Shown here: one piece after another, positions 1-16,094 of the stretch
How positions within the stretch are numbered: the stretch's first letter is position 1
Layout of the letters: every line of letters begins with the position of its first letter
Assembly (NCBI RefSeq): GCF_030273315.1
Contig: NZ_CP127174.1
Span: 248,001 to 312,000, forward strand
DNA: 64,000 nt
Direction of reading: 5' to 3'
Source of the DNA: Natrialbaceae archaeon AArc-T1-2
Lineage (GTDB): Archaea > Halobacteriota > Halobacteria > Halobacteriales > Natrialbaceae
Position numbers and translations under genes: made by a program
The notes under the pieces: generated by a model
The model's input: only the letters and a program-made list of their open reading frames with translations
Told to the model about the DNA's origin: nothing
The model's database searches: none

Positions 1-226
1 TGAGAGGGACAACACCAAGCAGGTACGTCCGCTCCTGTAGGAGTTCGGCGGCGAGAATCGCTCCGATGACCGCCGCGGCCAGTCCGACACAGAAGCCGAC
101 GTAATGTCCGACGAGCACTTCCCAAAGCCGGTAATCGTTGTCCGTGCAAAAGGCGCCGATGACGAGTAGCGTGTCGAGATGGGTTACGGTAAACAACCAC
201 ACAGCCACGAGCAGAGTCGTTTCCAC
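1..226 (-). CDS. CadD-like cadmium-resistance family membrane transporter (partial, C-terminus off window)
   Basis: The visible 75 residues begin VETTLLVAVWLFTVTHLDTL and contain two strongly hydrophobic segments separated by a short polar stretch (FCTDNDYRLWE). The order of a first helix with a TH(L/I)D motif, a polar loop and then a G-H-Y-x-G-F helix resembles the N-terminus of CadD-type transporters (Cad family), which are small multi-helix proteins linked to cadmium resistance. The GTG at 224-226 is the only sensible start because an in-frame TGA lies two codons upstream. The gene reads off the left edge, so length and C-terminal helices cannot be judged. Family assignment is by pattern recognition and moderate; a generic LysE-like exporter is the main alternative. 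Confidence 0.5.
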   Translation of the reverse strand, partial: METTLLVAVWLFTVTHLDTLLVIGAFCTDNDYRLWEVLVGHYVGFCVGLAAAVIGAILAAELLQERTYLLGVVPL

Positions 227-572
227 AGGTCACCGAATCTGTCACATCGAGACCGTATAGTGGTTTCTCTCCGCGAGCCTCAGTCGTTATAGGGTACCGT
301 GACCGGTACTCACTTTCTGACTCGTGCCACATTCGCGCTATGGGTTCAGCAGACGCGGTCCGAACTACCGAGTAGCTGTCAAAAGTGGCGTGACATGTAG
401 AGGATAGATGCAGCACAGGGACATAGTTTGTTTCACACTATCACCGAATGTCTATCCCGTAGCTACGAATGTCAGAGTTTCTGGATGGGATTTCGAATCT
501 CAGAAGAGGTACCCCAAACTCCTCGCAACGATGCCTCACTTAGAGAAAAAGATTGATCGTCGTCGATTCGAT
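227..572. other. Intergenic, relatively AT-rich, no gene recognised
   Basis: This stretch separates the CadD-like gene from the end of the PGF-CTERM gene. A 60-codon frame at 408-590 is present, but it has no recognisable domain, no ribosome binding site that I can see and runs into the neighbouring gene, so I do not call it. A near-palindromic GGTACC/CCGGTAC patch lies around 292-310. Confidence 0.6.
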
Positions 573-1295
573 CTAATGGATTCGCCGTGACGCTATTCCA
601 AGAGCTGCAACTAATGCAACCAATGCAGCACCGATTCCGAATCCAGGTAGCCCATCGGCTGCTTCTTCTTCATCTTCGGAATCTGTCTCCGCCACAGTGT
701 CACTCTCACCGTCTTCCAGTGAGATCACCAATTCGAACCCATCTAGGTCTGTATCCGCATCCCAAGAGGCTTGGGCACTATCTTTTTCATCCGAGTCGGG
801 ACTGGTAGATTCGATGGTCGCATCATCCGGTCCAGTAATAACCAACTGTCTGTCCAGTTCGAACCCGCTCGCAAACGGCTCGGTCAGAACGAGCGTCTCA
901 CCGTCAGCCTCTGCTAGCCCGCTCCAGGTAACCGCCACCGTCACTACACCGTATCCGTCTTCACTTTGGATCTCAATCGATGCGTCATCGATCACGGCTT
1001 CTCCATTGTGACCGCTATTTTCAGCCACGGATTCCATCCGCTCTGTGAACCGGTCACGGAGATCATCCTGTGCTTCTTCGTCTTCTTCTAACGATTCGAA
1101 CGAAGCTTGCTCATCTTCGTCACCGAGATCATAGACACTGACCAACGAAACGGTCGCATCGCCGTCCGAAGTCATTTCTACGTGGATCTTTGGTTCGTCT
1201 GGGTCCTCGACGCCAGTCGCTCCGGCAACCGGCGAAACAAATACGCTCCCAACAAGCACTACCGCAACTACGGCAACCAGAGTCCGGTCGTGCAT
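573..1295 (-). CDS. Secreted PGF-CTERM protein with DUF7345-like domain
   Basis: 240 residues with an N-terminal signal peptide (MHDRTLVAVVAVVLVGSVFV), an acidic ectodomain and a C-terminal tripartite sorting signal: the PGFG motif, a hydrophobic helix and a final RRIH cluster. That signal is recognised by archaeosortase ArtA, which removes the helix while the protein is lipid-anchored, so it should act at the outer face of the cell. The ectodomain (about residues 35-170) matches the DUF7345-type domain of the HTH membrane protein at 2166-3206: both have a beta pattern followed by FESLE, a VV..(F/T)W.G(F/L) strand and a late P-D pair. It is last in a three-gene minus-strand group, starting 6 bases after the previous stop. 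The ligand is unknown. Confidence 0.75.
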   Translation of the reverse strand: MHDRTLVAVVAVVLVGSVFVSPVAGATGVEDPDEPKIHVEMTSDGDATVSLVSVYDLGDEDEQASFESLEEDEEAQDDLRDRFTERMESVAENSGHNGEAVIDDASIEIQSEDGYGVVTVAVTWSGLAEADGETLVLTEPFASGFELDRQLVITGPDDATIESTSPDSDEKDSAQASWDADTDLDGFELVISLEDGESDTVAETDSEDEEEAADGLPGFGIGAALVALVAALGIASRRIH

Positions 1296-1301
1296 TGTTA
1301 G

Positions 1302-2027
1302 TTACTGGCCTCGATCGTCACTGTTGTTGCCGGCTCCACGATCTTCATCGTCAGCGTCATCGTCGCTTGCGTCAGTTGTGTCATCGCCAGGGGTTTCGTC
1401 GGGTGCACCTGGTTCGAAGTCACCGGCAACTCCGTTCCCGACGTTCTCACCAGCGATAGACTGAGCAAGCTCAGCCGTTTCAGGTCCGCCAAGTTCGCTC
1501 GCCTGTTCCTGGAGTTCCTGGATCGCCTCTACGTTGATCCCACGCTCTTCTAACACGTCTTCAGGTAACTCACCAGCAGTCTCCCCTGCCTGTTCGGCAG
1601 CTCGTTCCGTGTTAGCGTTCTCGGCAGTGACCTTCGCTATCTCCGAACGGTACTCACCCTCGCTAATCTCACCGTTCTCACGGGCTTCCTCTAGTTCTTC
1701 GAGTTCGGCTTCGTGTTCGTCCAGCCGTTCCTCGATTTCGGCAAGCCTGTCACCGACGATGTCGGCTTTGGCCGCATCTGACTGCGCGTTCGCTATTTTG
1801 ATTCCGAACGTCCGATCGGACACTTCACCATCGATTTCAGCGTCTTGCACACCTACGACGCCAGTCAACTGCTCTCCTGGTTCGACCGAGTTGTTCTCGC
1901 TCGCGTCTGCGTTGTCATTCGAACTGTCTTCACTGCCGTCTGCCAGGGCTGCGGCTGCGCCGAGTGGCATCGCTGCCAGTGCGGCAATGAGCATGATCGC
2001 CATGAGGATCGTTCCAAGTCGTTTCAT
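1302..2027 (-). CDS. Secreted acidic coiled-coil protein
   Basis: About 241 residues from MKRLGTILMAIMLIAALAAM, a clear signal peptide; an in-frame start 12 codons upstream would only add a non-signal extension, so 2027 is preferred. The mature part has an early Ser/Asn/Asp-rich linker, then a GV-rich patch, then a long Glu/Ala/Arg helix with heptad-like spacing (about residues 75-150: DRLAEIEERLDEHEAELEEL) typical of a coiled coil, and a disordered D/G/N-rich tail. No transmembrane helix or lipobox follows the signal, so it is probably released or held by partners. It lies between the DUF7345 sensor and the DUF7345 PGF-CTERM protein in the same orientation. Function unknown; a periplasm-like adaptor is conceivable but unproven. 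Confidence 0.7.
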   Translation of the reverse strand: MKRLGTILMAIMLIAALAAMPLGAAAALADGSEDSSNDNADASENNSVEPGEQLTGVVGVQDAEIDGEVSDRTFGIKIANAQSDAAKADIVGDRLAEIEERLDEHEAELEELEEARENGEISEGEYRSEIAKVTAENANTERAAEQAGETAGELPEDVLEERGINVEAIQELQEQASELGGPETAELAQSIAGENVGNGVAGDFEPGAPDETPGDDTTDASDDDADDEDRGAGNNSDDRGQ

Positions 2028-2165
2028 TGCAATCGTTCCTATGGCCTGTCCACGGATATACACTGAAGTTGGTAGCTCCGGTTCAACGATGTTTTCCCGG
2101 GTTTTACGCCGTTTTCGATCCGACGCCGTCTATCGATTTCCCGATTTACAGTTATTGGATTGACG

Positions 2166-3206
2166 TTATTCGTGGTGGCTTGCTTTCTCGGCTTCTTCCT
2201 CGGGAATTCGAAGCACGTTTTCCCGGCCAATCCGGAACGATTCGAGCTCACCTTCCTCACGGAGCTTGCTCACTACCTTGCTCGTCTTCGCATCAGTCCA
2301 TCCAAGCTCCTCGACCACCCGCTTTTGTTTCATTCGACCACCGTTCTCTTCCACCAGGTGCATCACCTGTTCCTCATTGCTCAACAGCGACTCATCGGGT
2401 TCCGATAGGTCTGGTTCCGCAACTGGTTGCGGATCACTCCCCGATGGTTCGTCCGTTTCGTCCCTCGTCCGGATACGGAACCACCAGAACGCAAGTCCTG
2501 TGACCGCCCCGATAGCGCCTACCGATCCAGCGATGAGCGGCCAGCTAAGCCCGGTTCCAGCGGTTGAAACGACGATGCGAGGTTCTCCAGAGACAAAATC
2601 CGTTTCCCCACCGTGCCAGATAACGGCCCGGTCACGCTGATCATCGGGATCTGGGGTTACGGATATGAGTTCGTACTCCTCAGGCCAACTAATCAGTAGC
2701 CGGGTTCCGTCATCAAGATAGATGCCCTCGATCGCGTCTCCGGCCTGTAATTCGCCATTCTCACTACTGGTGAATCCATGCCATTGGAACGAGTACCGAA
2801 CGACTCCATACTCGCGGCCAAATGACTGTCGTTCCGTACTGACACGAAAGCTGTCAGCCGTCATCTCCCTGTTTGTCGCGGTACTCGCGGTCGCAACGGT
2901 GTCGTCGATCCGGTCAGCGAACTCGTGAGTGTACGCGTCTGGATCGTCCTCAATATCACGTTCGAGTGACTCGAAAGCGTCTGTACTGTCATCGTCGTCG
3001 AGTTGGACCCAGAATTCGACCGTCCACGCAGCAGAACCATCGTCTTGGAGCGCAATATCCATTCGCACCTCATCAGCGTCGATCTCATCTGGCTCCATCG
3101 CTGGTGCCTCTGTTCCTTGTGCCGATCCGGCAGATACTGAGGGGCCAAGCCCGATGAGAAGGCCTGTAGCGAAAAGGAAAACAAGCAAGCCGAAGCGGAC
3201 ATTCAT
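2166..3206 (-). CDS. Membrane-anchored DUF7345 sensor with cytoplasmic winged-helix (DUF7343-like) domain
   Basis: About 346 residues from MNVRFGLLVFLFATGLLIGL; the frame stays open further upstream, but those 82 codons lack a signal peptide and 3206 gives a proper one. Order: signal peptide (1-30), external DUF7345-like domain (about 40-215), single helix (about 225-250, SWPLIAGSVGAIGAVTGLAFWWF), acidic linker, and a C-terminal winged helix (about 285-340) containing SNEEQVMHLVEENGGRMKQK and a recognition-helix-like DAKTSKVVSKLREEGEL. The layout suggests a one-component regulator that reads an outside signal and binds DNA inside. It heads the group with 1302-2027 and 573-1295. Regulatory targets are not visible; autoregulation of this locus or control of the divergent genes from 3538 is the obvious guess. 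Confidence 0.75.
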   Translation of the reverse strand: MNVRFGLLVFLFATGLLIGLGPSVSAGSAQGTEAPAMEPDEIDADEVRMDIALQDDGSAAWTVEFWVQLDDDDSTDAFESLERDIEDDPDAYTHEFADRIDDTVATASTATNREMTADSFRVSTERQSFGREYGVVRYSFQWHGFTSSENGELQAGDAIEGIYLDDGTRLLISWPEEYELISVTPDPDDQRDRAVIWHGGETDFVSGEPRIVVSTAGTGLSWPLIAGSVGAIGAVTGLAFWWFRIRTRDETDEPSGSDPQPVAEPDLSEPDESLLSNEEQVMHLVEENGGRMKQKRVVEELGWTDAKTSKVVSKLREEGELESFRIGRENVLRIPEEEAEKASHHE

Positions 3207-3537
3207 ACCTGAATCTATTTCAGCTGCTCGCTTAAAAGATATGAAGTTCAAAAGGTGAGCAGTCTTATCAGCCAACAGTGTTCGGAGGGTGCTGAACTTG
3301 CCAGTGCACCGTTTCTTGAGTCGGCGTACTCTCGCTAATCGACTGGAATGCACTTCGTTGGTCCGCGGTATCGAATCGGTAGTGAACGTATCTAAAACCT
3401 CGACCGAACGGTCCTGGACCAGCACCACGTTGAGGGTCTCGATCACTCCCAAACGGCGTTAAATGGTGGAAAATGCCGGAAACCAGGAGTCAACAACTCC
3501 AGTGTATATCATCGGTCTTGTCGTATGATCGGACGCA
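3207..3537. promoter_or_regulatory. Divergent intergenic region between sensor and secreted-protein genes
   Basis: This 331-bp gap separates two divergent transcription units. AT-rich patches (GCTTAAAAGAT near 3231 and GTGTATATCATC near 3501) are plausible TATA-like elements for the minus and plus genes. No operator repeat could be assigned. Confidence 0.4.
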
Positions 3538-3930
3538 ATGAACGCAAGACAACTGATCACGATTGCGGTTGTGGCACTGCTCATGATCGGTGGGGTGGCG
3601 GCGCTCGGAGCCGCCAGCCCAGCCGATCAGTCGAATGACAATGCATCGGATACGTCTCACGAAAATGAGTCCGACACCGACGGCGGAACTGCTGGTGCCG
3701 CCGACGATCGTGCCGAGAACGCCGATGATATCGGGCCAAACGACGGCCTACCCGCACAGGTGCCCGAACACGTGAGCGATCTTCACGACCGAATTGGATC
3801 GTTCCTGGATGGGTCGATTGACCACCTCGGCCAGGCGCTAAGCGACCTGTTAGGTGGCGGTGACAGTTCCGACACGAGTGACCGCAGCGAAACCGGTGAC
3901 GAGAGCGACGATGTGGAGTCAGCCACGTAA
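3538..3930 (+). CDS. Small secreted acidic protein of unknown function
   Basis: 130 residues. An N-terminal signal peptide (MNARQLITIAVVALLMIGGV) is followed by a low-complexity Asp/Asn/Ser/Glu linker and a short conserved-looking amphipathic block around residues 65-105 (LPAQVPEHVSDLHDRIGSFL), ending in another Ser/Asp tail. The linker-block-linker layout suggests a protein that presents one helical segment at the cell surface. It starts 331 bp from the divergent sensor gene and is followed after 53 bp by the DUF4382 lipoprotein, so the four plus-strand genes probably form one operon of exported proteins. I do not recognise a family. Confidence 0.65.
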   Translation: MNARQLITIAVVALLMIGGVAALGAASPADQSNDNASDTSHENESDTDGGTAGAADDRAENADDIGPNDGLPAQVPEHVSDLHDRIGSFLDGSIDHLGQALSDLLGGGDSSDTSDRSETGDESDDVESAT

Positions 3931-3983
3931 GTGCTGAACATAAACACCCAATTCCAACTGACCAACGTAATCGATTACATCTC

Positions 3984-4571
3984 ATGAAACAGAATACCAC
4001 TTTGACGGACAGACGAACGTATTTGGCAACGACTGGGGCAGCAACAACCGGGATAATCGGGTTCGCTGGTTGTCTCGCTTCCGGCGAAACGGGAACGCTT
4101 GCAACGCAGGTGACCGACCAACCAGGCGACATCGCGGACTTCGAATCCTGTCTCGTTACCATCGTCGGGATGTGGCTCGGTCCCGATGGTGCACAGACAG
4201 GTGAAGAGGAAGACGAGGAACCCGCTGACCGCGAGTACTACGAGTACGAAGAATCCCAGCAGGCCGACCTCGTCGAACTGCAAGGTGACAACACGCAGCT
4301 AGTTGACGAACGGGAACTCGATGTCTCAACATACGAGTTCCTACAACTCGATATCGACGGGATCGACGCGACGCTCGAAGATGGTTCCGACGCGACCGTC
4401 GAGGTACCGGGAGAAGCACCACTGACGTTCAACGAGGGCTTCGAGGTCCGCGAGGATACTCGCACTGAGTTCACGGCGGACTTCACCCCGGTCCAGCGCG
4501 GGCAGGCAGATGACTACGTTCTCCAGCCCGTCCCCGAAGGCATCACCGTCGAATACGAGGAGGAGGCGTGA
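3984..4571 (+). CDS. DUF4382-family lipoprotein (Tat, lipobox)
   Basis: 195 residues. The N-terminus has a twin-arginine signal (DRRTYLATTGAA) and a lipobox FAGC at about residue 30, so the mature protein should be folded in the cytosol, exported by Tat and lipid-anchored outside. The body starts with the T-D-x-P-G-D-I strand typical of DUF4382 proteins (beta-sandwich surface domains of unknown ligand), has an acidic insert (about 70-90, EEEDEEPADREYYEYEESQQ) and a second beta half (95-190). Its TGA stop overlaps the ATG of the next small membrane gene by one base, which suggests translational coupling. Function beyond a surface domain is unknown. Confidence 0.75.
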   Translation: MKQNTTLTDRRTYLATTGAATTGIIGFAGCLASGETGTLATQVTDQPGDIADFESCLVTIVGMWLGPDGAQTGEEEDEEPADREYYEYEESQQADLVELQGDNTQLVDERELDVSTYEFLQLDIDGIDATLEDGSDATVEVPGEAPLTFNEGFEVREDTRTEFTADFTPVQRGQADDYVLQPVPEGITVEYEEEA

Positions 4572-4801
4572 TGATCGGCGCCATGGTCTCGATACCGTTG
4601 TTCGTCGGTCCAACCGTGTTCCTACTGGGGCTGCTGATCGCGCTCGTGGTCGCGGTTGCGATCGTCGGTCTGCTATTCAGCCTGTCGTGGCGGGTCATCG
4701 CACTCGCTGCTCTCGTACTGGGTATCCTTTGGCTGGTTGGCGTAATCGGGTTCAGCCCGGGAGGCCCCGGCGCATCGGAGCTGCTAGCGATGGGCCTGTA
4801 A
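4571..4801 (+). CDS. Small two-to-three-helix membrane protein
   Basis: 76 residues beginning MIGAMVSIPLFVGPTVFLLG, almost entirely hydrophobic with helices at roughly 6-35 and 40-62 and a short GPG-rich tail. The ATG at 4571 overlaps the TGA of the DUF4382 gene (TGATG); a GTG one codon upstream is possible but less likely. No domain is recognised. Its tight coupling to a lipoprotein gene suggests that it accompanies the exported proteins, perhaps as a membrane partner, but nothing in the sequence shows this directly. Confidence 0.6.
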   Translation: MIGAMVSIPLFVGPTVFLLGLLIALVVAVAIVGLLFSLSWRVIALAALVLGILWLVGVIGFSPGGPGASELLAMGL

Positions 4802-4846
4802 CGATTGTACCGTTCACAAATCAGCTTCCGAAATAATCAGATACCT

Positions 4847-5527
4847 ATGCAATCGAGACGAACCTTCTTGACACTCGGTGCGAGCACAGCGATAGCAACT
4901 ACAGCTGGATGTACTGCGAGTATGCCGTTCGTCGGCGACGATCCGATGGAGTTTGATGCGGACCCGGCATCGATTCCGCAATCCGCCCTGGACGAGACGG
5001 GGTACGACGAGCACGAAATCGAGGACATCGGGATCGAACGGACGTTCGAAGCAGGCGGTCAGACGCAGGACGTCGTTGTCACGAATTGGCAGGCGGAGTA
5101 CGACAAGGCAATCGACCTGGGAGAACTGGGAGTGCCGATCGACGAACGCCTTCGAGCAGCCGTTTGCACGGCACTCACGACCCCGCAAGTGAGCGTGCTC
5201 AACCGGACATTCAACCCCGTCGGCGAGATGACGAGCGAGGAACTCGCGGAGAAAGTTCAAGATCGATACGAGGGGATGGAGAACCTGGAACAGGTTGACG
5301 AGGACACGGTATCGATCACCCGTGAATCGACAACTGTTGGCGAATTCGAAGGGGAGGCTGACCTCGTCGGAGAAGGAATCCCGATCGACCTCACGCTTCA
5401 CATCACAGAGGCGGTGGAGTCCGGAGACGACTTCGTCGTCGGCGTCGGTGGGTATCCTACCGAATTGCGGAGTGATGAACGACCGAATATAGTTTCCTTG
5501 TTGGAAGCTATCGAGCATAACGGATAG
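4847..5527 (+). CDS. DUF6517-family Tat lipoprotein
   Basis: 226 residues from MQSRRTFLTLGASTAIATTA; the frame is open upstream, but this ATG places the RR motif at the N-terminus. A Tat signal and a lipobox (TAGC, about residue 20) precede a domain with the haloarchaeal DUF6517 hallmarks: a PMEFDADPASIP segment, a SALDETGYDEHE segment, then beta-rich sequence with a GIPIDLTLHITEAVESGDDF strand pair near the end. The family is a surface-anchored protein of unknown function. It is the last gene of the plus-strand group and is followed by the convergent integrase gene. Identification of the family is fairly confident; its role is unknown. Confidence 0.7.
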   Translation: MQSRRTFLTLGASTAIATTAGCTASMPFVGDDPMEFDADPASIPQSALDETGYDEHEIEDIGIERTFEAGGQTQDVVVTNWQAEYDKAIDLGELGVPIDERLRAAVCTALTTPQVSVLNRTFNPVGEMTSEELAEKVQDRYEGMENLEQVDEDTVSITRESTTVGEFEGEADLVGEGIPIDLTLHITEAVESGDDFVVGVGGYPTELRSDERPNIVSLLEAIEHNG

Positions 5528-5616
5528 GCTTACTAACTGAGATCTGCTGCATTTGCGCGTTGTATTCAGCACGCACGTCTTGTCATCTCTAGATGATTTC
5601 GACATAGCCGATCGAA

Positions 5617-6234
5617 TCAAACCTTGAGTAGGTGATCGTAGATCCGCTCAGTTGTTTGAATACTTCGGTGGCGAAGCCGGTTGCGAACGTCATAGAGTGT
5701 GTTCCCCTCTTCTACATTCATCATCCGATATGCCACACCGTGTCGAAGAGTATGCGGAGTCACATCACTCGTATCTCCCCGACTGCCATCGATCTTGTAT
5801 GGTCGGACACCAGCCTCGTCGGCTACCTTGTGCAGCATATTCCGTACACCTTGTTCAGAGATTCGGTCTGCAGACCGTGATGGAAAGAGTGCCAATGAAT
5901 CCTTCCAGCGGTTGGTGAGATACGCAGAGAGCAAACGCGAGGTGTCATCTGCAAGTTCCAGCGTTACAGGTGGCGGTGAGTTTTCGTTCGGGTAGTCCTT
6001 CTGGATCTCAGTCGGAAGGTAAAGATCCGAGTTGTTGTTTCGAAGAAGTTCGACGTTGAGTTGTACGAGCTCACCAACCCGGAGTCCAGTATCGTACATC
6101 GTCACCACGATAGCTTCGTTGCGTTGTTGCAGATAGTCGGCTCCGATGGCATAACATGCCGACCGGAGTGCCTCAACCTGTTCTGGTGTCACCCAGACTT
6201 TCGCCCGAACTTTGGAGTTTGCAGATTCACTCAT
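5617..6234 (-). CDS. Orphan tyrosine recombinase (catalytic-domain-only integrase)
   Basis: About 205 residues from MSESANSKVRAKVWVTPEQV (a start four codons upstream is possible). The tyrosine recombinase catalytic set is visible: Arg52 in YDTGLRVGEL, His161 and Arg164 in TPHTLRHGVA, His189 in NRLRHRS and the nucleophile Tyr199 in TTERIYDHL. The usual N-terminal SAM-like core-binding domain (about 100 residues) is absent, giving a protein close to the minimal catalytic domain seen in small haloarchaeal virus and plasmid integrases. No excisionase, replication gene or second viral gene is adjacent. A perfect inverted repeat lies 46-77 bp upstream and a third copy of its core lies inside codons 5-8. 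It may be an active solo integrase or a domesticated remnant. Confidence 0.8.
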   Translation of the reverse strand: MSESANSKVRAKVWVTPEQVEALRSACYAIGADYLQQRNEAIVVTMYDTGLRVGELVQLNVELLRNNNSDLYLPTEIQKDYPNENSPPPVTLELADDTSRLLSAYLTNRWKDSLALFPSRSADRISEQGVRNMLHKVADEAGVRPYKIDGSRGDTSDVTPHTLRHGVAYRMMNVEEGNTLYDVRNRLRHRSIQTTERIYDHLLKV

Positions 6235-6279
6235 TCTAACAACCACTCTTTATATACTGGTATGCGTCTCGACCGACTT

Positions 6280-6311
6280 AACTTTGGAGTCTACAAAGAG
6301 ACTCCAAAGTT
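6280..6311. repeat. Perfect 12-bp inverted repeat upstream of integrase gene
   Basis: AACTTTGGAGTC (6280-6291), an 8-base spacer and GACTCCAAAGTT (6300-6311). The arms match perfectly. An 11-base copy, AACTTTGGAGT, recurs in direct orientation at 6208-6218, inside the first codons of the integrase. The placement, immediately upstream of the gene and overlapping its start, fits either an operator that represses the integrase or arm/core binding sites of an attachment site. The rest of the 6235-6549 gap shows no gene. Confidence 0.75.
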
Positions 6312-6549
6312 CATATATCGGTTGTTAGCGGATGTTGCCTACAAGAGACAGAAGCAGTAAGGATTGAATCCGGTGTGAGGATCAAGCACTCTCCGGGATG
6401 CGTCCTCTTACCATTCTACAGGGTGTCATACAACGGTTCCCATACCTGTTAGCACCGCCCCGAATCGGTCAATTCAGAGAACTCACATACCAGCGAGGGC
6501 GACGATCTTACCGACATCTGTCAAGAACGGCGTGCAAGATACAGAGATT

Positions 6550-8667
6550 TTATTGATCATCGATTTCGACACCAGTAATTTCGAAACGCGCACCACCCTC
6601 GTCACCGTCCGTCACATGGAGTTCCCAGCCGTGGGCATCGACGATCTGTTTGACGATGCTCAACCCGAAGCCGGTGCCATCTTCACATGTCGAATAGCCT
6701 GCTTCGAAGATCGTTTCACGCTCGTTTGCAGGGATGCCCGGGCCAGTATCTTCAATGTAGAACCCATCGGTCAGTTCGCCAACCGTCACGGTTACGCCTT
6801 CGCCACCGTGCTCGACAGCGTTCCGAATCAGGTTCTCGAACAACTGTTTCAGGCGGCTCCTGTCAGCCTGCACTGTGCCGTCCATATCAGTAACGAGTGT
6901 GGCCTCGTCCGTCTCCACAGTCGCCCAGCAGCCCTCTACAACTGAAGCGAGAGCTACCGGTTCGAGGTCCGCTATGGCCTCACCCTCACGGGCTAACGTC
7001 AGGAGATCCTCGATCAGCGTCTGCATCCGTTCGTGGGCCCGATCAGCGTGTTCTAAGTGCTCGCTATCACACTCCTCAGCAGCTAGCTCCAGTCGCCCTT
7101 TAGCGACACTCAGCGGATTCCTGAGATCGTGGCTAACGATGCTGGCGAACTCTTCGAGCCGGTCGTTTTGCCTGGTAAGTTCCTTCTCACGGGCACGGAG
7201 CTGCCCGGTCCGTTCGACCTGCTCCAGCGCTGTAGCCAGTCCGCTGGCCAGAATCTTGGCCAGAAGTAAATCCTGATCGTCGAACGATTCCGGTGACGGC
7301 GATCCAGCGAGTAAAATCCCGTATTCACCGAGTGGCAGGTAGAGCTCGCTCCGAATCGGCGTGTCCGGATTATACCGATCCGGTTCCTCGTGAACGTCAC
7401 CGACTGCGAGTGGCTCTCCCTGCTGGTAGACACGCCATGCGATGCTGTCCCCATCGGTGAACGTCGGGGGCTCGCCAACGAGATCGTACACGGACTCGGT
7501 GGCCACCACCGGAACCAATCCTTCAGCGTCCGAATCATACAGGTGAATCGAGTTCGCGTCTATACCCAGGAGATCTCGGGTCGTCTCAACACCTATCTCG
7601 ACGATTTCGTCTTGCGTATCTGCGCTCATCAGCTCGTGAGCGACTCGGTTCAGGGCTTCAAGCTGTTCTGTCGTCTCTTCGAGTTGCTGGCGATACAACT
7701 CACGATCTCCGACATCGGTGATGGTTACTAATTGGCCCGTCTGCACTTCGCCTGCCATGAACGGTGAAGTCGTTACCTCATAGAAGTGTAGCTCTTCACC
7801 CTGGGAGACTGTCATCGGGTCTGTGCTCGAAAGGGCGTCGCTGAGCGTTGAGTTCACTGTATCGAGCGACTGTCCAATAGACCCCCGAAGGGATGGAAAG
7901 AGTTCCTGAGCAGCCCGATTATAATCACGAATGCAGCCATCTTTGTCGAGAAAGAGTGCAGGTGACCCGCTTTCACTTGTCAGACGTAATACTTCGAAGC
8001 GACGGTGATAGACGAATAGCGTACCAACGGCGAACAGTGCGACACCAGGCGGCTCATACATCAGGGGAAGCAGTATATCGATCTGATTGCTGAGAATGGT
8101 TGCGGTTGCCGGAAGTCCAGTAAGGCCGGCGAGAATCACGAGGGGCCGACTATCGGTTCCAGTATGGTAGAACCGCTCGATTAGCATAAAGAAGCCAACT
8201 GCGATAACTGCGTAGGATAGCCCCAGTACGATCCAGTGCAGTGATTGCTGGTGAATAGCGAGATGTGTATATGGAGTAGTGGTCCACTCGGTCGTGAAAT
8301 AGAGATTGTGAAGTGGATTCGTGATCTTCAGAACGGTAAAGAGCAGGAAGACAGCGATGAGGATATTTCGGTACGGTGCTTGTCGTGGCGGCCGGCCAGT
8401 GTAGGCCGCACAAAAGTACAACCAAGCACCGACAGCGACGAACGCAAAGACGTATCCGAAAATATACAATGCGATTTTACTCCCCGCTGTAGGGGCGAGT
8501 AGATAGCCGATATAGCCCCCAGACCAGAGAGCGACGGCGGCTAACAAAGCGACAAGACCTTGGCGTGTTCCTGGGTGTTGGATCGTCCGGGCCCGTGGAA
8601 TACTGGCGAGACAAACAAGCGCTGACGCTGAAAACAGAAGCGTATATCCGAGAATAGCTAGATTCAT
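6550..8667 (-). CDS. Seven-helix-sensor histidine kinase with PAS and GAF domains
   Basis: 705 residues. The first 225 residues form seven hydrophobic segments of the histidine-kinase N-terminal 7TM type, followed by a PAS domain (about 232-335), a short coiled linker, a GAF domain (about 338-485), a HisKA dimerisation helix with the acceptor His513 in SIVSHDLRNPLS and a HATPase domain (N box IRNAVEHGG, G1 box DTGPGI, G2 box GTGFGLSIVK). It should autophosphorylate in response to a membrane or cytosolic cue and pass phosphate to a response regulator, but no regulator gene is adjacent. It is divergent from the LOV-containing kinase starting at 8985, with 317 bp between them, which may indicate joint control. 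Confidence 0.85.
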   Translation of the reverse strand: MNLAILGYTLLFSASALVCLASIPRARTIQHPGTRQGLVALLAAVALWSGGYIGYLLAPTAGSKIALYIFGYVFAFVAVGAWLYFCAAYTGRPPRQAPYRNILIAVFLLFTVLKITNPLHNLYFTTEWTTTPYTHLAIHQQSLHWIVLGLSYAVIAVGFFMLIERFYHTGTDSRPLVILAGLTGLPATATILSNQIDILLPLMYEPPGVALFAVGTLFVYHRRFEVLRLTSESGSPALFLDKDGCIRDYNRAAQELFPSLRGSIGQSLDTVNSTLSDALSSTDPMTVSQGEELHFYEVTTSPFMAGEVQTGQLVTITDVGDRELYRQQLEETTEQLEALNRVAHELMSADTQDEIVEIGVETTRDLLGIDANSIHLYDSDAEGLVPVVATESVYDLVGEPPTFTDGDSIAWRVYQQGEPLAVGDVHEEPDRYNPDTPIRSELYLPLGEYGILLAGSPSPESFDDQDLLLAKILASGLATALEQVERTGQLRAREKELTRQNDRLEEFASIVSHDLRNPLSVAKGRLELAAEECDSEHLEHADRAHERMQTLIEDLLTLAREGEAIADLEPVALASVVEGCWATVETDEATLVTDMDGTVQADRSRLKQLFENLIRNAVEHGGEGVTVTVGELTDGFYIEDTGPGIPANERETIFEAGYSTCEDGTGFGLSIVKQIVDAHGWELHVTDGDEGGARFEITGVEIDDQ

Positions 8668-8984
8668 CGGAGATATATGTATAGGAATATACGGCTGATT
8701 GATAATGATTCGGTTGCCAAGACGAATGCTCTAGACCAGCTACTTCTGGACGAATCGCCGTGCAGTAGACACCGTACGGTTGATCTGCATATGTGGGAGT
8801 AGAAACGATGTGACGATTCAGAGATTAACTGGTGCACTGAATGGGGATTTGACCTGCAACTTGTGGCGGCCCACAACTAAAATATGTCTCGGGTCCTGTA
8901 TCAATAGATAGCATGACACATCTCCCCACGCTACGTGAACGCCAAGAAAACGAACTGACCACTCATTAAGCGGGGTACGATAAG
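8668..8984. promoter_or_regulatory. Divergent promoter region between two histidine-kinase genes
   Basis: The 317-bp gap is AT-rich near the minus gene (GATATATGTATAGGAATATA at about 8671-8690), a good TATA-like candidate for the 7TM kinase. For the plus gene, CACTCATTAAGCGGGG at about 8961 precedes the ATG by roughly 20 bases. No gene is recognised in between. Confidence 0.45.
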
Positions 8985-11276
8985 ATGACAGAAACCGCAA
9001 TAACAGCTCAAGCGGCCAGAAATGAATTGTACGAAATCATTCAGAGGGATATTCCGTTTGAGCAGAAAGCACGTGATGCCCTCGAACTCGGCACGCAGTA
9101 TCTCGGTGCAGACAACGGCCATCTCACCCGGATCGACCGAGAAACCGATTACTGGGAAGCCATCGTCAGTACTGACCCACCGGACGGTCGCTTTCCGCCG
9201 GGGCTCGAACTCGATCTCAACACGACGTATTGCCGCCGAACGATTGAGGCGAATTCGACTATCGCGCTTTCTGATGCACCAACTCAGGGGTGGGCTGACG
9301 ACCCGGCATTCGAAGCCCACGGCCTGCACTGTTACCACGGCACGTCACTCATAGTCGATAACAACACGTACGGAACAGTCTGTTTCGTTGCTGAAGATCC
9401 ACGTGAGGAGTTCAGCGACGGCGAAACCATGTTCGCTGAACTCATCGCCAAACTGCTCGAACGAGAACTCGAACGCCAGCAACATGAGGCCGAACTCACG
9501 AGACAAACCAATCTTGCCATCGTCCTCAATCGGGTGCTTCGACACAACCTTCGCAACGATCTGTCTGTTGTCCGTGGATTCACCGAAATGATGGCTGACG
9601 AATTGGGTGAGAATCCGTATAGTAAGACTGTACTCGATAACATTGATGACCTTATTCGGTTGGGCGAAAAAGCCCGGCAGTTAGATCGCATCGTCGCCGC
9701 TGACTTCGAACGTGAATCGACCACTATTACGGCACTCGTTGACGACATCGTCGAGCAGGTTTCACGCAAGTATCCGAACGCGTCAGTTAGTGCTGAATAC
9801 GACGAAGCGATCATCGCAGCAGTCTTCCCAAGTCTCGAACGGGCACTCGAAGAGTTGATCGAAAACGCTGCCAAACACGGCGGCGACGCTCCGACTGTCA
9901 CCGTTTCTGTGGACGCCGTGCCAAATGCCGTCGAGATCGAAATTACGGATACCGGCCCCGGACTGGCCAGTCATGAAGCCGATGTGCTCCAAACGGGTAC
10001 TGAGACCCCACTAACTCACGGATCGGGACTCGGCTTGTGGCTCTCTCACTGGATCGTCACCAGCCACGACGGCACAATCGACGCGACCGTAACGGACGAC
10101 GGAACAACGATGACGCTTTCTATCCCTCGAAAAACGGACACGGACATTCACCAGCAGATCTCCGAACTCAGGCGGGCCCGCGATCAGTACGAAGCAGCCT
10201 TTGACGAAGCCAACGATGCGATGGTTATCGTCAACGATGAGGCACGGATTCTCCACGCCAATCCGGAAGCGAGCACTATCTATGGCCTGGACCAGCAAGC
10301 GTTGCTCGGCCAGACACTCCAGCGATTTCTGCCGGGCGCGTTTGACTTCGACGCCGCATGGGACACGTTTCAGGACGCCGGACGGGAACGTGACTCAGTG
10401 TCGATAGTTGACGCGGATGGCATCGAACGGCAAGTCGAGTATTCTGCTACGACCGATATTGTGCCGGGGCAACATCTCTTTGTTATTCGGGACGTGACAG
10501 AGCGACTCCAGCAGAAAGCCGAACTCACAACGAAGACACAGGCGATGGACAATGCACCGGTCGGCATCACGCTTGCCGATCCGAACCAGAACGACAACCC
10601 ACTCGTGTACGCCAACGAGCGGTTCTGTGAGTTGACCGGATACGACGAGGGAGAGGTTTGTGGGCAGAACTGTCGGTTTCTGCAAGGAGATGAGACTGAT
10701 CCGGAAACAGTAGCCACGATTCGCCAAGCCATTGACGCCCAAGAGCCGGTCACAGAAGTAATCCGAAATTACCGGAAGGACGGCACCACATTCTGGAATG
10801 AGCTAACCATTGCACCGATCAGAGACGAGTCTGGAGACCTCGTGAATTGGGTCGGATTCCAACAAAATGTGACTGAACGAATCGAACGTGAACAGGCGCT
10901 TGAAGAGACAACACAGCGACTGAACGCAATCATCGAAGCCTCTCCAGACGCAATCATCGCGCTCGATGCGGATGGAACCGTCCAGTTGTGGAACGAGGCT
11001 GCTGAAGACGTGTTTGGATACGAGGAAGAAGCGGTGATCGGTGAACCAATTCAGTCACTCGGAATACATAGTGACGATCAGCAGTCCGAAATCGAACAGC
11101 AATTCAAGCTTGCACTCGCGGGTGAAACGTTTCGCAATCACAAAATCCACCGGCAAACAAAAGATAACGAACGTGTTCAGCTGAGTCTATCAACAGCACC
11201 AATTATGGCCGAGTCTGGAGCAATCACAGGAGTGATGGGTGTCGCTACACCTCTCACAGAGGATGTCTATGGCTGA
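8985..11276 (+). CDS. GAF-histidine kinase-PAS-LOV-PAS protein with internal kinase core
   Basis: 763 residues, soluble. Order: GAF domain (about 10-165), HisKA-like helices with His187 in VLRHNLRNDLSVV, HATPase (about 275-382; N box ELIENAAKHGG, G1 DTGPGL, G2 GSGLGLWLS), PAS (about 395-508), LOV-type PAS (about 515-632) and a further PAS (about 640-755). The LOV domain has the flavin-binding signature GQNCRFLQG at 560-568, including the photoactive Cys563, so blue-light sensing is chemically possible. The kinase core usually sits at the C-terminus; here three sensory domains follow it. No response regulator is fused or adjacent. The C-terminal sensory domains may gate the kinase in trans or act as a separate output. 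Domain calls are confident, light sensing is inferred. Confidence 0.85.
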   Translation: MTETAITAQAARNELYEIIQRDIPFEQKARDALELGTQYLGADNGHLTRIDRETDYWEAIVSTDPPDGRFPPGLELDLNTTYCRRTIEANSTIALSDAPTQGWADDPAFEAHGLHCYHGTSLIVDNNTYGTVCFVAEDPREEFSDGETMFAELIAKLLERELERQQHEAELTRQTNLAIVLNRVLRHNLRNDLSVVRGFTEMMADELGENPYSKTVLDNIDDLIRLGEKARQLDRIVAADFERESTTITALVDDIVEQVSRKYPNASVSAEYDEAIIAAVFPSLERALEELIENAAKHGGDAPTVTVSVDAVPNAVEIEITDTGPGLASHEADVLQTGTETPLTHGSGLGLWLSHWIVTSHDGTIDATVTDDGTTMTLSIPRKTDTDIHQQISELRRARDQYEAAFDEANDAMVIVNDEARILHANPEASTIYGLDQQALLGQTLQRFLPGAFDFDAAWDTFQDAGRERDSVSIVDADGIERQVEYSATTDIVPGQHLFVIRDVTERLQQKAELTTKTQAMDNAPVGITLADPNQNDNPLVYANERFCELTGYDEGEVCGQNCRFLQGDETDPETVATIRQAIDAQEPVTEVIRNYRKDGTTFWNELTIAPIRDESGDLVNWVGFQQNVTERIEREQALEETTQRLNAIIEASPDAIIALDADGTVQLWNEAAEDVFGYEEEAVIGEPIQSLGIHSDDQQSEIEQQFKLALAGETFRNHKIHRQTKDNERVQLSLSTAPIMAESGAITGVMGVATPLTEDVYG

Positions 11277-11513
11277 AGAGTAAGAGACAGCGTGTCCGTT
11301 GTACCTAGTCTGAGATTGACATTCTCAACAATCAAGTTGGCTACCTGAACTTGTCTCTGGCGGCAGGCACAACATATGTGCGGTGTATCTTGCATACCAG
11401 CACAGATACCAATCGCATCTTACAATTCACTCATCGCAAAATACGCACCCGGTACTGAACGATCAACAGTATTTGTGAATCGGGTGTGGGAACAATTCTA
11501 TGACACCCTGATT

Positions 11514-12284
11514 CTACGGAACCTTGCCGTCTGGGATAGCTCCCAACCGCTCTGCGATGTATAGTGTTAATGTACTGTCTGCAGTTGGAAATTTGGTTGT
11601 GTACTGAACGTAATGTGGAGTGATACGGATCGTAACGAGGGTAGTTGGGGGGATTTTCTGCTTGAGGTCTCGAAGGATGTCGATTGGTATAGTGAGCCGT
11701 ATCGTTGAGTCGTGTATCTGCTTGACCTGCTCAGGCTGAACGACGTATATGAAATCGTCACCACCTGGATCCGCTGCGGCGAACTCAATCAGGCTGGTTT
11801 CCGGATTGATCTGTAACTGCACCTCACCACCGATGAAATTCGCTGCGGTGATCGCTTTAGCAAACTCACCGTGATGAATTGAGAAGGTTGTTGCTATATC
11901 TGATGCTGGAACATCAGGTAATCGGTGACCATATGCGGTGATGAGAGATGGTGCTTGATATGTGAGCTGCTCCGGTTCGAATATGGGTGTGCGATCCGGT
12001 GTCTCAGAGGGGAGCGTGATTCGAACCTCGTCACCCCCGGTTGCACGCAAGAATCGACTGATCAGGTCGAGTTTTATCCAAAAACTGTCGGGCTCGGCAT
12101 CTCCGGTGACATGCGGACTCGACCGTGGAAGCGAATACTCAAAATAGATCGTTCTGTCTTCTGCTTGTGCGCGGAGCCGAATCTCATCAGTTTCCACCGC
12201 GACGTGACACTCGCTCTCCTTATGGATAGCGGCCCCTGTACTGAGAATGTCTTTGAGTGTCGGGGCATCGAATAGTAGCGGCAT
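11514..12284 (-). CDS. Divergent PCNA-like sliding clamp paralogue, coupled to a transposase gene
   Basis: 256 residues, close to the 245-250 of archaeal PCNA. The N-terminus (MPLLFDAPTLKDILSTGAAI) aligns with the PCNA start (a beta strand then a helix with TLRDAL-like spacing). The interdomain region (LPDVPASDIATTFSIHHGEF then AKAITAANFIGGEVQLQINP) follows the order of haloarchaeal PCNA (PDIPDLDLAATIVLEG...IKAADMVSDHIRLRV), and the C-terminal half keeps the LRDLKQKIPPTTLVTIRI pattern (cf. LKDMNKAIPSDAEVTVEL) and a final strand like LAPRI. Sequence identity is clearly low and there are small insertions, so this is not the replicative clamp. Its ATG overlaps the TAA of the upstream transposase by one base (TAATG), implying coupled translation. 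A clamp that loads or targets the transposase is an inference. Confidence 0.7.
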   Translation of the reverse strand: MPLLFDAPTLKDILSTGAAIHKESECHVAVETDEIRLRAQAEDRTIYFEYSLPRSSPHVTGDAEPDSFWIKLDLISRFLRATGGDEVRITLPSETPDRTPIFEPEQLTYQAPSLITAYGHRLPDVPASDIATTFSIHHGEFAKAITAANFIGGEVQLQINPETSLIEFAAADPGGDDFIYVVQPEQVKQIHDSTIRLTIPIDILRDLKQKIPPTTLVTIRITPHYVQYTTKFPTADSTLTLYIAERLGAIPDGKVP

Positions 12285-14101
12285 TAGGATGTGTCCTGTA
12301 GGTACCGAAGTCCTATTGGGCAGGTTGGGCCACCGAATGAGAGATTCCGAATTACTTCCAGGACTTCCAGCTGTGTCGGGTCAAACTCGACGCCACGCTT
12401 CGGTGAAGGGACGGTCTCCGTAATCTTATAGAGGTTATAAAACAAGGTGGAGATATTGTAGTAGAATAATTTGTGAGCCGGGTTCGCTGAATCCGTCGCT
12501 ACATCGAACCTGTTCCTGGTAAGTCGGAATTGCGTCTCGATCTTCGCACGCTGATTATACTGGAAGTTAAGATTTGTAATCCGTTGCTCACGAGCGTCCT
12601 GGTCATCCGGAAGTGGTATATCAGACCAGAACGCCCGAACTGAGTCCGATAGCTTCTGGCTCGATGTCTCCTTGTCAGTTTCTGACGACTCCTCGTCGGT
12701 GCTTACTCCCGAATAGCCAAGGAGTTGCGTCGGCGGATGTAATCCCTCGAATCCAGCATCAGGGATGACCGCCGTTCCACCTAGCTCGATTTCCTCTAAA
12801 AGCCGGGTATAATCCGTACTGCCTGAATTTTTCTCACTCTCGTCTTGGGCATGAATCGCCCACCGTTGCGGAACAAATGCTCGGCATGCTTCTATATCAC
12901 TCACGCCGTCGAATCCGCGATCAGCGAGGAATAATTTCACGTCGACCATCCGTGTCAATGCCCGAAGGAAATTTTTCAACACTCGGGTCCGCTGGGCTTC
13001 TGATTTCAGGAGTCTAAGTCCGAACGCGAATTCAAGATCGGTGTCAGTAAACGAGAGCGAGGCGAACCGCCACCGACCATCGTCGGTCAGAAACGTGTCA
13101 TCGCGCACTTCATGCCCAAAGTTTTGGATATTGACGAGATCATACGCAACCGTGACCGGTTCAGACACGACACCTGAATCAAGCACGTATTCAAGCAACT
13201 CTTGATACATCCCATTAAACAACGCATGAATCTCCCACACGGATAATCCGTCAATATGGTGCCAGATCGTTGAGCCGCTGAATGCTGTATCAAGCTGGAA
13301 GAGGTGTTGTGCTGCTTGTTCATACTTTTCGATGCTTTCATCGGTGATCGCAGCGGTGGCAAAGATTCCAAGAAGACTTCGTAACTCACGTGACTTGTTC
13401 GAGGCTCGATCAAAATCCAGGTGCGAGATGACGATCTCCATCAAGTCATTCATCAGTTCGTATAGCGGTACCTGTCGAGCGTCGTCAGAGAAGTCGTCAG
13501 CAGCTGGCCCAAGCGTATACGACAATCCGTACTGATCTTTGACCGGGTCTGGAATCGGCAGGCCATTCCAAAACAACGCATGCGCCGCGATCCAACTCGC
13601 ATCAACCAGCAGCTCAAACTCACCACTCTTTTTCAACTGCTTTGCGGCTTTCCGATACGTGGATTGCCCATAGGCGGCCTGCAGTCCGAACTGTTCGAGT
13701 TCTCTAGACGAATATATCGAGAGGTGATCACTCAACGCTTTGAACGACCCAAGATTCCGTGTGCAGCGAATCATCAATCCTCGCAACTTGTACAGCTTGT
13801 AAGAGTCCGCATTGAGGCCTGCTGTCTCCAGCGCTAATTCTGCTACATCACATAGTCCTTCGTCGAAAATCGCATTGATACACCGCTCTGTTTCGTGTTC
13901 TTCGCAGTCTGGTTCGTATCTGTTTTCTCGTGCCATCGCAACAATCAGCGGTTTCTCTAACTCGATACTGCGACGCCCACCGCCTGGGTGAGAGAGGGTA
14001 TATTCTCGTGTGGACTCTGGGTTGAACGACTTGAACTCGTCCACTTGGTCTTGATTCGCGTGGCGTGTTTCGCCCGCAAATGCATCTTGAAACTTCGTCA
14101 T
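12284..14101 (-). CDS. DDE (IS4-like) transposase, translationally coupled to PCNA-like gene
   Basis: About 605 residues from MTKFQDAFAG. A catalytic triad can be proposed: Asp321 in TVAYDLVNI, Asp394 in LFLADRGFDG and Glu522 in YNQRAKIETQFR. The region around the Glu, followed by NISTLFYNLYKI, resembles the Y-(2)-R-(3)-E signature and the hydrophobic tail of haloarchaeal IS4/ISH-type transposases. The N-terminal 300 residues (FKSFNPESTREYTLSHPGGG, then helical sequence) presumably bind DNA ends. It is long for the group, and I could not find convincing terminal inverted repeats in either flank (11277-11513, 14102-14409), so it may be domesticated or a damaged element. The TATA-like TTTATAAT lies only 8 bases from the ATG, so the true start could be downstream. 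Confidence 0.7.
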   Translation of the reverse strand: MTKFQDAFAGETRHANQDQVDEFKSFNPESTREYTLSHPGGGRRSIELEKPLIVAMARENRYEPDCEEHETERCINAIFDEGLCDVAELALETAGLNADSYKLYKLRGLMIRCTRNLGSFKALSDHLSIYSSRELEQFGLQAAYGQSTYRKAAKQLKKSGEFELLVDASWIAAHALFWNGLPIPDPVKDQYGLSYTLGPAADDFSDDARQVPLYELMNDLMEIVISHLDFDRASNKSRELRSLLGIFATAAITDESIEKYEQAAQHLFQLDTAFSGSTIWHHIDGLSVWEIHALFNGMYQELLEYVLDSGVVSEPVTVAYDLVNIQNFGHEVRDDTFLTDDGRWRFASLSFTDTDLEFAFGLRLLKSEAQRTRVLKNFLRALTRMVDVKLFLADRGFDGVSDIEACRAFVPQRWAIHAQDESEKNSGSTDYTRLLEEIELGGTAVIPDAGFEGLHPPTQLLGYSGVSTDEESSETDKETSSQKLSDSVRAFWSDIPLPDDQDAREQRITNLNFQYNQRAKIETQFRLTRNRFDVATDSANPAHKLFYYNISTLFYNLYKITETVPSPKRGVEFDPTQLEVLEVIRNLSFGGPTCPIGLRYLQDTS

Positions 14102-14409
14102 GAGGCACAATTATAAATATCCAAATCACGCACGGATAAACCCTTGCCAGAATCACGAATCAGAGACCTCGGGAAGCAATCCGGTAATTCGGGTCTTGCG
14201 TCCACTCGAATCAGCTAACCATCGAAAAACGGCATACGGAGAGACGTAATCACTTCACCTCTCAAACTGACAGGCAAATGAATATTATCTGAAATGCCGA
14301 AAATGACGTTGTAGCGTGTCTATAATGCTTGATTCCGATTATTCGCATCCTGCTCAGCAAACGATGCAGTCACAGCCAAGTGGCTTCGCCGCGTATCTTT
14401 GCTAAACTC
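14102..14409. other. Intergenic between transposase and SWIM gene
   Basis: AT-rich with TATA-like patches on both strands (ATATTTATAATTG near 14110 for the transposase, GTCTATAATGC near 14318 for the SWIM gene). No terminal inverted repeat matching the other side of the transposase/clamp pair was found by eye. Confidence 0.45.
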
Positions 14410-15231
14410 GTGAACGTCACGAAGCAAGCCATACGTGACCGCTGTACTGACGCGGTCTTCGAGCGCGGACAAGACTACTGTGAAGAAGGGCGCATCCAGC
14501 GTATCAACCGGTTTGGCGACATCATTACTGCCGCAGTACAGGGTTCGACCCTCTACGAACTCACTATCGAAGTCGGGCCATCCACGATAAATCCGCGCTG
14601 TTCGTGTCCCTACGACGGACCGGGCGACTGTAAACATATTGTCGCCGTGTTGCTGGACATTGTGGACGCTCCGCCATCGGATGAGCGCGACCGCGTCCAA
14701 GCAGTCCTTGACGATGTTGCGGATGAGGATCTCCGTGCGTTCGTGATCGACACTTTCGCAATCCGCCCTGAACTACGCGACCAGTTTCTTGCCCGGTTCG
14801 ACGACACGGACATGGCGAGTAAATCCGTCGAGGAGTACCGCGCCGAGATTGAAGGACTGTTCAACCAACACACCGAAGAGTATCCAGTCGTCGTTGATGC
14901 CATCGACTTCTCTCGGTTCTTCGACATTGCGGAACAGTATCAGGAACGCGATCACTACCGGTCCGCAGCGACCGTCTATCGGGCATTGTTCGAGGCGATC
15001 GATGACAACATCCATCTCGTCGATGCGGCTTACGATCACTACGCACAGGTACTCCGGTCCGCGATTGACGGGTATGTTGACTGCGTTCACGTCGCGGAGC
15101 TGGACGCCGACGCCTTCGAATCATACGCCAGGGTGTTAGACGAGCGAGCCTCAACGGGAGCCGACATTCACCGTGAACAGTTCATGGACGCGCTTGAGGA
15201 GCTTGAAGAGTTTGAGGAATTTGGAGAGTAG
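14410..15231 (+). CDS. SWIM zinc-finger domain protein
   Basis: About 273 residues from the GTG at 14410 (VNVTKQAIRDRCTDAVFERG), which matches where family members usually begin; the frame is open upstream but without recognisable sequence. The SWIM motif CSCPYDGPGDCKHIVAVLL at about residues 64-82 gives the C-x-C...C-x-H zinc ligands. SWIM domains bind DNA or protein and are often found beside helicases or Rad51 paralogues. The remaining 190 residues are helical with an acidic C-terminus (EELEEFEEFGE). The neighbour is the divergent transposase, and no helicase gene is nearby, so a partner cannot be named. Confidence 0.7.
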   Translation: MNVTKQAIRDRCTDAVFERGQDYCEEGRIQRINRFGDIITAAVQGSTLYELTIEVGPSTINPRCSCPYDGPGDCKHIVAVLLDIVDAPPSDERDRVQAVLDDVADEDLRAFVIDTFAIRPELRDQFLARFDDTDMASKSVEEYRAEIEGLFNQHTEEYPVVVDAIDFSRFFDIAEQYQERDHYRSAATVYRALFEAIDDNIHLVDAAYDHYAQVLRSAIDGYVDCVHVAELDADAFESYARVLDERASTGADIHREQFMDALEELEEFEEFGE

Positions 15232-15782
15232 CTACCAGAAAATTATGCCTTTATATTTACAATGTTATCATAGTTATCCATCTATGCGCCAGATGTTCGG
15301 AAAGGAATGACGAATATCTGAGCCTCTACAGCCTGATCTCGGCCGAATCGCATCATTCTCATTCTACCGCTCGATCGCCCGCTGACTCACATGTCTTGGC
15401 GGGTCCAATCTTATAGTGCGGGTTTGAAGGAAGTCACAGCGCGCCGCTTCTGGTCGATACTCGCCGAATCGGGAAAGACTGCCGACTGACTGGCTTGGCT
15501 CGTGAGGTGTGCCCCCAGATGATAGGGTAGCACCTCGATCACCGCGCCGATCGGCGCGGATTCTGGCCTGCTTGCCCCGGTTCGATCAGCCGTGACTCCC
15601 CACCGAAACAGTGGCTCCGTCACCGCCACCGTACAGTGCGGTGGTCAGCTCACACGTATGCCATAATCTTCCAACCATAGCACAGTGATGAAACCGGCTA
15701 ATCCCTTCCCGTTCATACGAACGAACCAATCCGATATTTGCTGAATTAGGCCTTGAAACGTATTCTGCCGCCGCCTATTTGG
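15232..15782. other. Intergenic, partly structured; weak 72-codon frame
   Basis: The 551-bp gap marks the end of the A+T-rich region. It contains an 18-base perfect palindrome at 15542-15559 and other short GC-rich inverted segments. A minus frame at 15411-15629 would encode 72 residues (MAVTEPLFRWGVTADRTGAS...), with fairly balanced composition but no domain I recognise. It may be a small gene, a leftover of a mobile element or a structured RNA; I cannot decide. Confidence 0.35.
15542..15559. repeat. 18-bp perfect palindrome
   Basis: CCGCGCCGATCGGCGCGG reads identically on both strands with no spacer. It lies in the 15232-15782 gap and is not at a gene start that I can identify. Possible protein-binding site or cruciform. 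Confidence 0.8.
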
Positions 15783-16094
15783 TCACGAGCGCGACTCGAA
15801 CTCGTGTAACACCACCTCGCTCTCGTCGTCCCACTCGGTGTCGTGTGTCGCTTCGATGCGGCGCTTGTACGCCTCGAGGTTCGGCGATCCCTCTGCACGG
15901 GCATCCTCGTCGGTGAGCTCACCCAACCGTCGGTGCTCGACGTTCGTGACCTCGAAAACCGTCTCCTCGATGACGAAGGTATCGCCCTCCGTTGCGTGGG
16001 GATCCCCGCGATGCAACTGCGTGATTTCGCCCTCGAGAGCCATCTGTCTGATCCGCGCTGCCGGCAGCAACTCGGCTGCGTCAATGCGCGCCAT
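15783..16094 (-). CDS. ASCH-domain protein
   Basis: 103 residues, MARIDAAELLPAARIRQMAL..., with the ASCH-like small beta-barrel order: an early EGEITQLHRGD strand, EGDTFVIEETVFEVTNVE and a helix DEDARAEGSPNLEAYKRRIE, ending in DTEWDDESEVVLHEFE. ASCH proteins resemble PUA folds and are thought to bind RNA or act on modified nucleosides; some members hydrolyse acetylcytidine. The haloarchaeal version is a stand-alone protein of this size, so the gene looks complete. It is the first clearly GC-rich gene after the accessory region. Confidence 0.75.
   Translation of the reverse strand: MARIDAAELLPAARIRQMALEGEITQLHRGDPHATEGDTFVIEETVFEVTNVEHRRLGELTDEDARAEGSPNLEAYKRRIEATHDTEWDDESEVVLHEFESRS

Follow-up and report, generated by a model that had tools for sequence, protein, structure and literature searches.

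A kinase gene with probable sensor domains on both sides of its core

The window, by which we mean the whole 64,000-nucleotide stretch of DNA analysed from Natrialbaceae archaeon AArc-T1-2, contains a gene for a histidine kinase in which a LOV domain follows the catalytic core. The gene stands alone, and its features are listed here with the evidence for each.

8985–11276, + strand: kinase-first LOV protein, ATG start, 763 amino acids (open reading frame, Pfam, homologues)
9063–9467, + strand: GAF domain, residues 27–161 (PF01590, E = 1.5e-11)
9531–9692, + strand: HisKA (DHp), residues 183–236 (PF00512, E = 0.00028; 21.3 bits, below the curated cut-off of 26.9)
Within HisKA: H-box RVLRHNLRNDLSV, with phospho-acceptor His187 and Asn188 at +1 (H-box table, alignment)
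9831–10133, + strand: HATPase_c, residues 283–383 (PF02518, E = 4.2e-17; N box IENAAKH, G1 box DTGPGL, G2 box GSGLGL)
10134–10169, + strand: HATPase-PAS1 junction, residues 384–395 (family-wide fixed spacing; low model confidence)
10170–10529, + strand: PAS1, residues ~396–515 (a PAS lies directly behind the core in 43/43 tailed family members)
10530–10904, + strand: LOV domain, residues ~516–640 (GQNCRFLQG inside; sequence and fold match)
10917–11249, + strand: C-terminal PAS, residues 645–755 (PF00989; 62% identical to the PAS directly after PAS1 in a Halorubrum dual kinase)

A sequence-only reading had proposed the order GAF-HisKA-HATPase-PAS-LOV-PAS and a LOV domain placed behind the kinase. 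Both are borne out by a Pfam domain search, which returned GAF, a weak HisKA, HATPase_c and three PAS domains, and by the GQNCRFLQG motif in the segment behind the core. The protein thus departs from the canonical LOV histidine kinase, where LOV is N-terminal to the kinase core. Pfam gave no match in the window protein to a receiver domain or a second kinase core, so that it is not a dual kinase of the TodS kind, and no match there to BAT or HTH_10 output domains, so that it is not a Bat-type regulator. The best explanation is that the gene encodes a soluble haloarchaeal sensor of the histidine-kinase type whose catalytic core receives input from either side.

The LOV segment has the GxNCRFLQ motif with the photoactive cysteine, and retains all seven positions that contact flavin in YtvA (N61, R63, Q66, R79, N94, N104 and Q123) together with the photoactive-site C62; the position of YtvA T30 is occupied by alanine. 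The best sequence match in the PDB for residues 516–646 is the LOV domain of YtvA, while the NCBIfam models for YtvA (residues 518–649) and for a blue-light histidine kinase (residues 510–652) both match at the level of the domain, under their whole-protein cut-offs. Structural modelling gives a LOV/PAS fold with flanking helices (AF2, LOV pLDDT ~90), and in a PDB fold comparison that covered mainly this region the AlphaFold model aligned with the YtvA LOV domain (2pr5) at Z 20.6 and 1.5 Å, with 47% identity. Judged from its sequence, the domain is predicted to bind flavin and to undergo a photocycle. One haloarchaeal LOV domain that has been characterised photocycles at up to 3 M salt (PMC12202551).

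In the kinase core, His187 and Asn188 are invariant among 22 aligned proteins, and the N, G1 and G2 boxes are present, leaving the ATP-binding motifs intact. Asn188 stands in place of the acidic residue of the H-E/D-x-x-T/N pattern. An acid at H+1 is required for autophosphorylation in the bacterial HisKA kinases tested, the substitutions examined being E to A, D, G and Q. CrdS and HK853 are among the kinases in which this acid serves the kinase activity and is dispensable for the phosphatase, with the reverse true of Thr or Asn at +4 (PMC3510030). The window protein could on these grounds be a light-regulated phosphatase or pseudokinase, in which an HN-type H-box has lost autokinase activity and the main reaction is dephosphorylation of a response regulator; all core-first members of the family to which it belongs have H-N at the H-box and Asn at +4, as against SHDLR(N/S)P in nearly all of the second kinases fused to them. 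We regard this as doubtful, given the intact ATP-binding motifs, the presence of Asn at +1 in 36 of 73 typed haloarchaeal kinases (LOV kinases of ordinary order included) and the fact that HWE and HisKA_2 kinases are active without an acid at +1. With Asn so frequent at +1 in the kinases of haloarchaea, Asn188 cannot be read as the mark of a dead kinase, and a 'kinase-dead because of HN' interpretation is weakened; how strong an autokinase the protein would be is uncertain. As an observation in its own right, the residue after His in the kinases typed from survey loci L133–L232 is N in 36 and D in 37 cases, and the occurrence of Asn in about half of the haloarchaeal kinases typed runs counter to the requirement for an acid in bacterial HisKA kinases.

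Upstream of the gene and divergent from it, at a distance of 317 bp, lies a gene for a HisKA_7TM-GAF-HisKA-HATPase kinase (6550–8667, − strand); a control region shared by the pair is possible. The GC content of window positions 1–16000 is 52–55%, against 60–67% further on. This low-GC stretch includes a phage-type integrase (5617–6246) and DUF7345/DUF7343 genes, and at 11514–14110 (− strand) a divergent PCNA-like protein (E = 4.5e-9, below the family cut-off) directly adjoins a gene that weakly matches an ISH3 transposase. Positions 1–16000 are probably an acquired island, and the nearest core relatives of the window protein belong to another family.

A rare design within a widespread haloarchaeal family

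LOV-like matches were found in 50 of 59 genomes of the class. When the Cys-motif proteins from 100 fetched loci were typed (n = 72), LOV preceded the kinase in 46 and occurred without a kinase in 26, and in none did it lie behind the kinase; the counts are approximate, as typing rests on the Cys motif and on HMMs from this family. Among the 26 kinase-less proteins, the one scanned is a BAT-HTH_10 regulator. The claim that the layout is unusual therefore holds, the window protein being the only post-kinase LOV of 73 typed in the 59 haloarchaeal genomes. The 2014 archaeal LOV survey describes LOV-HTH proteins and LOV-kinases assembled with RR, GAF and PAS units (PMC4844311); a Lake Diamante study places sensor modules N-terminally and mostly histidine kinases C-terminally (PMC12202551); and a census of archaeal two-component systems leaves LOV unmentioned (PMC5847659). 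Word and phrase searches of the open-licence literature brought up no account of a kinase whose LOV domain is C-terminal.

The core was sought in 125 genomes of the window's family and 391 of the class, and at the loci fetched every open reading frame was annotated with HMMs built here. It is widespread in haloarchaea, being present at E ≤ 1e-55 in 65 of the 391 genomes of the class, and a search of 295 genomes of the phylum at E ≤ 1e-40 turned up no family member beyond the haloarchaeal order. These proteins form a haloarchaeal family in which the N-terminal unit, GAF-HisKA-HATPase-PAS1, is fixed and the C-terminal tail varies. Among the 43 tailed members, defined as HATPase followed by PAS, the tail contains LOV in 11 (the window protein included), a fused second kinase in 10 (L083, L084, L088, L089, L091, L093, L105, L119, L122 and L124) and PAS domains only in 17; in five, a second kinase is encoded by the next gene, 4–18 bp away or overlapping by ~50. 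The LOV-tailed proteins are drawn from family groups f1, f3 and f4. Many relatives of the core are without any LOV, and some have no tail or PAS1 only, so a long tail is unnecessary for keeping the core.

Whether the arrangement is more than chance was addressed through homologues and trees. The sequence-only reading had called for a comparison of architectures across haloarchaeal genomes, which recovered the same order in ten others, and it had named two findings that would undermine it. One was an assembly error joining two genes, now refuted by independent homologues: LOV stands behind this core in ten further genomes, the core-PAS1 join is shared by 43 proteins, nothing was found in support of an assembly or frameshift artefact, and we treat its probability as negligible, rejecting a chance fusion likewise. 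The other, loss of the LOV cysteine in homologues, was seen in none of the LOV tails, although the LOV call is itself partly based on this cysteine. The kinase-first order is a real but rare protein design.

Evolution of the LOV tail

In a tree of 85 haloarchaeal LOV domains and YtvA, all 11 post-kinase LOVs form one clade, with support of 81/95 and recovery in 82% of bootstrap trees, values under the strict threshold. The LOV-tailed proteins are dispersed over the core tree; nine changes are required, at least eight of them forced by well-supported branches, and a single origin of LOV-tailed cores is accordingly unsupported. The core of the window protein is sister to that of a Halorubrum dual kinase (support 96/90), and the two are 72% identical over GAF-HK, 63% over PAS1 and 62% over the last PAS of the window protein. 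In the Halorubrum protein that PAS comes after PAS1 with no LOV in between, and a further PAS and a second kinase follow; this protein, the one informative relative from a scan of genome contigs, has the same length and layout as a protein of genome G205. Since this sister lacks LOV between the matching PAS domains, LOV is a module that can be inserted into, or lost from, the tail behind a constant core.

The same sister relationship, together with the low-GC surroundings of the gene, which include an integrase and a transposase-like gene, could be taken to mean that a dual kinase on a mobile island lost its second kinase and that the LOV tail is a functionless leftover. Several observations make this very improbable. 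The LOV domain and its flavin contacts are intact; LOV is absent from this place in the Halorubrum protein, where PAS1 is followed directly by the PAS that corresponds to the last one of the window protein; and two other LOV-tailed proteins (L090 and L123) terminate at the same last PAS, which also weakens the idea of a truncation peculiar to the window genome.

Proposed control of the kinase from the C-terminal side

Usual models of photoreceptor kinases place the sensor before the DHp helices, on which it acts directly. For the window protein we propose that light tunes the balance of kinase and phosphatase activities through the C-terminal PAS1-LOV-PAS tail acting on the ATP-binding (CA) domain, a reading drawn from sequence and models to which we give a probability of about one half. 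The N-terminal GAF domain would act on the DHp helices in the usual way. The tail would be a helix-linked photosensory rod, held by PAS1 at a fixed distance from the CA domain; blue light would produce a cysteinyl-flavin adduct in LOV, and the resulting change would pass along the PAS1-LOV helix to a PAS1 dimer, which could alter the reach of the CA domain to His187 or its hold on the phosphatase pose. The outcome would be a light-tuned kinase/phosphatase balance towards a response regulator. PAS1 dimerisation, the direction of the light effect and the partner are presumed elements of this scheme.

Two observations bear on how the tail might be coupled to the core. In 34 of 43 members, 16 residues separate HATPase from PAS1 (range 15–22), although the linker sequence is not conserved across the family in its first half; a constant spacing despite a variable linker speaks for a mechanical link between tail and catalytic domain, though it may partly reflect common descent. 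The AF2 model has continuous helices at residues 505–522, between PAS1 and LOV, and 630–652, between LOV and the last PAS. This model, built from a 22-row alignment (mean pLDDT 80, pTM 0.35), has well-formed domains whose relative packing it does not fix, and its lowest-confidence part is the CA-PAS1 junction (residues 384–398, pLDDT under 50).

The tail could instead be a docking or coupling module, in which light would govern the binding of PAS1-LOV-PAS to another kinase or to a LOV/BAT regulator in a heteromeric complex, the protein's own CA domain not being the target. The sequence-only reading had offered both roles, control of kinase activity and a docking output; it had not brought out that the tail is an exchangeable module in a family that includes dual kinases. 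The best argument for docking is that the tail often lies between two kinases, the second HisKA-HATPase being fused in 10 of 43 members and encoded by the next gene in five. A LOV tail and a second kinase never occur together (0/11 against 15/32; Fisher p = 0.008, in a test that ignores shared ancestry among rows related by descent), so that a separate partner could replace one; this exclusion fits either control or docking. The second LOV protein of the window genome (L128) is of BAT-HTH_10 type. Against docking, no partner gene adjoins the window gene on the same strand, and a mere tether needs no fixed CA-PAS1 spacing. Control of the protein's own kinase by the tail is favoured because of that spacing and the continuous helices in the model, and docking, the main rival, seems to us a possible but unlikely account.

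Several known systems of differing kinds can be compared with the window protein. It resembles haloarchaeal LOV histidine kinases (REC/PAS/GAF-LOV-HisKA-HATPase), such as the Halonotius protein behind ALovD-1 (PMC12202551) and those of the survey (PMC4844311), in archaeal class, GxNCRFLQ motif, solubility and PAS/GAF blocks, but LOV precedes the kinase in all 46 of those surveyed here and follows it in the window protein. Bat-type LOV regulators (LOV-GAF-BAT-HTH_10), of which L128 is one, have a DNA-binding output and no kinase. CheA is a further case of regulation from behind the ATPase domain: its P5 domain lies on the C-terminal side of the ATPase domain and feeds regulatory input into the kinase. 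P5 is SH3-like and serves in coupling, as against the PAS/LOV domains of the window protein, and the likeness is one of layout, with no homology claimed. The nearest characterised case found of a PAS behind a kinase is TodS, which with TmoS belongs to the dual kinases (PAS1-HK1-REC-PAS2-HK2) and in which dimerisation of the PAS behind the kinase core tunes output, PAS2 being without a known sensing role (PMC4861429). Those proteins have two kinases and a receiver; the window protein has one kinase and no receiver was found in it by Pfam, while ten members of its family have two cores.

We tentatively suggest, with rather less than even confidence, that these proteins constitute a separate class of haloarchaeal photoreceptor kinase, in which LOV domains of a distinct lineage would act on the catalytic domain from behind, by way of a fixed PAS1 adapter, light and the GAF signal would reach a single core from its two ends, and tails of different kinds (LOV, PAS arrays or a second kinase) would be swapped behind the constant core. 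A constant kinase core with swappable C-terminal tails may be a haloarchaeal way of building sensors, and a conserved family with its sensor behind the catalytic domain makes LOV regulation of a kinase from this other side directly testable. The family is also a source of salt-tolerant parts for tools controlled by light.

One further observation concerns family group f2 (L122, L124 and L125), where the core-first kinase comes fifth in a tight operon encoding, in order, a PAS-STAS protein, a STAS protein, an RsbT-like HATPase, a SpoIIE phosphatase and the kinase. It looks like an RsbR-S-T-X stressosome module in haloarchaea, and the same operon is also present at L233, on plasmid pHSR-CO of Halanaeroarchaeum sp. 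HSR-CO (295–6023).
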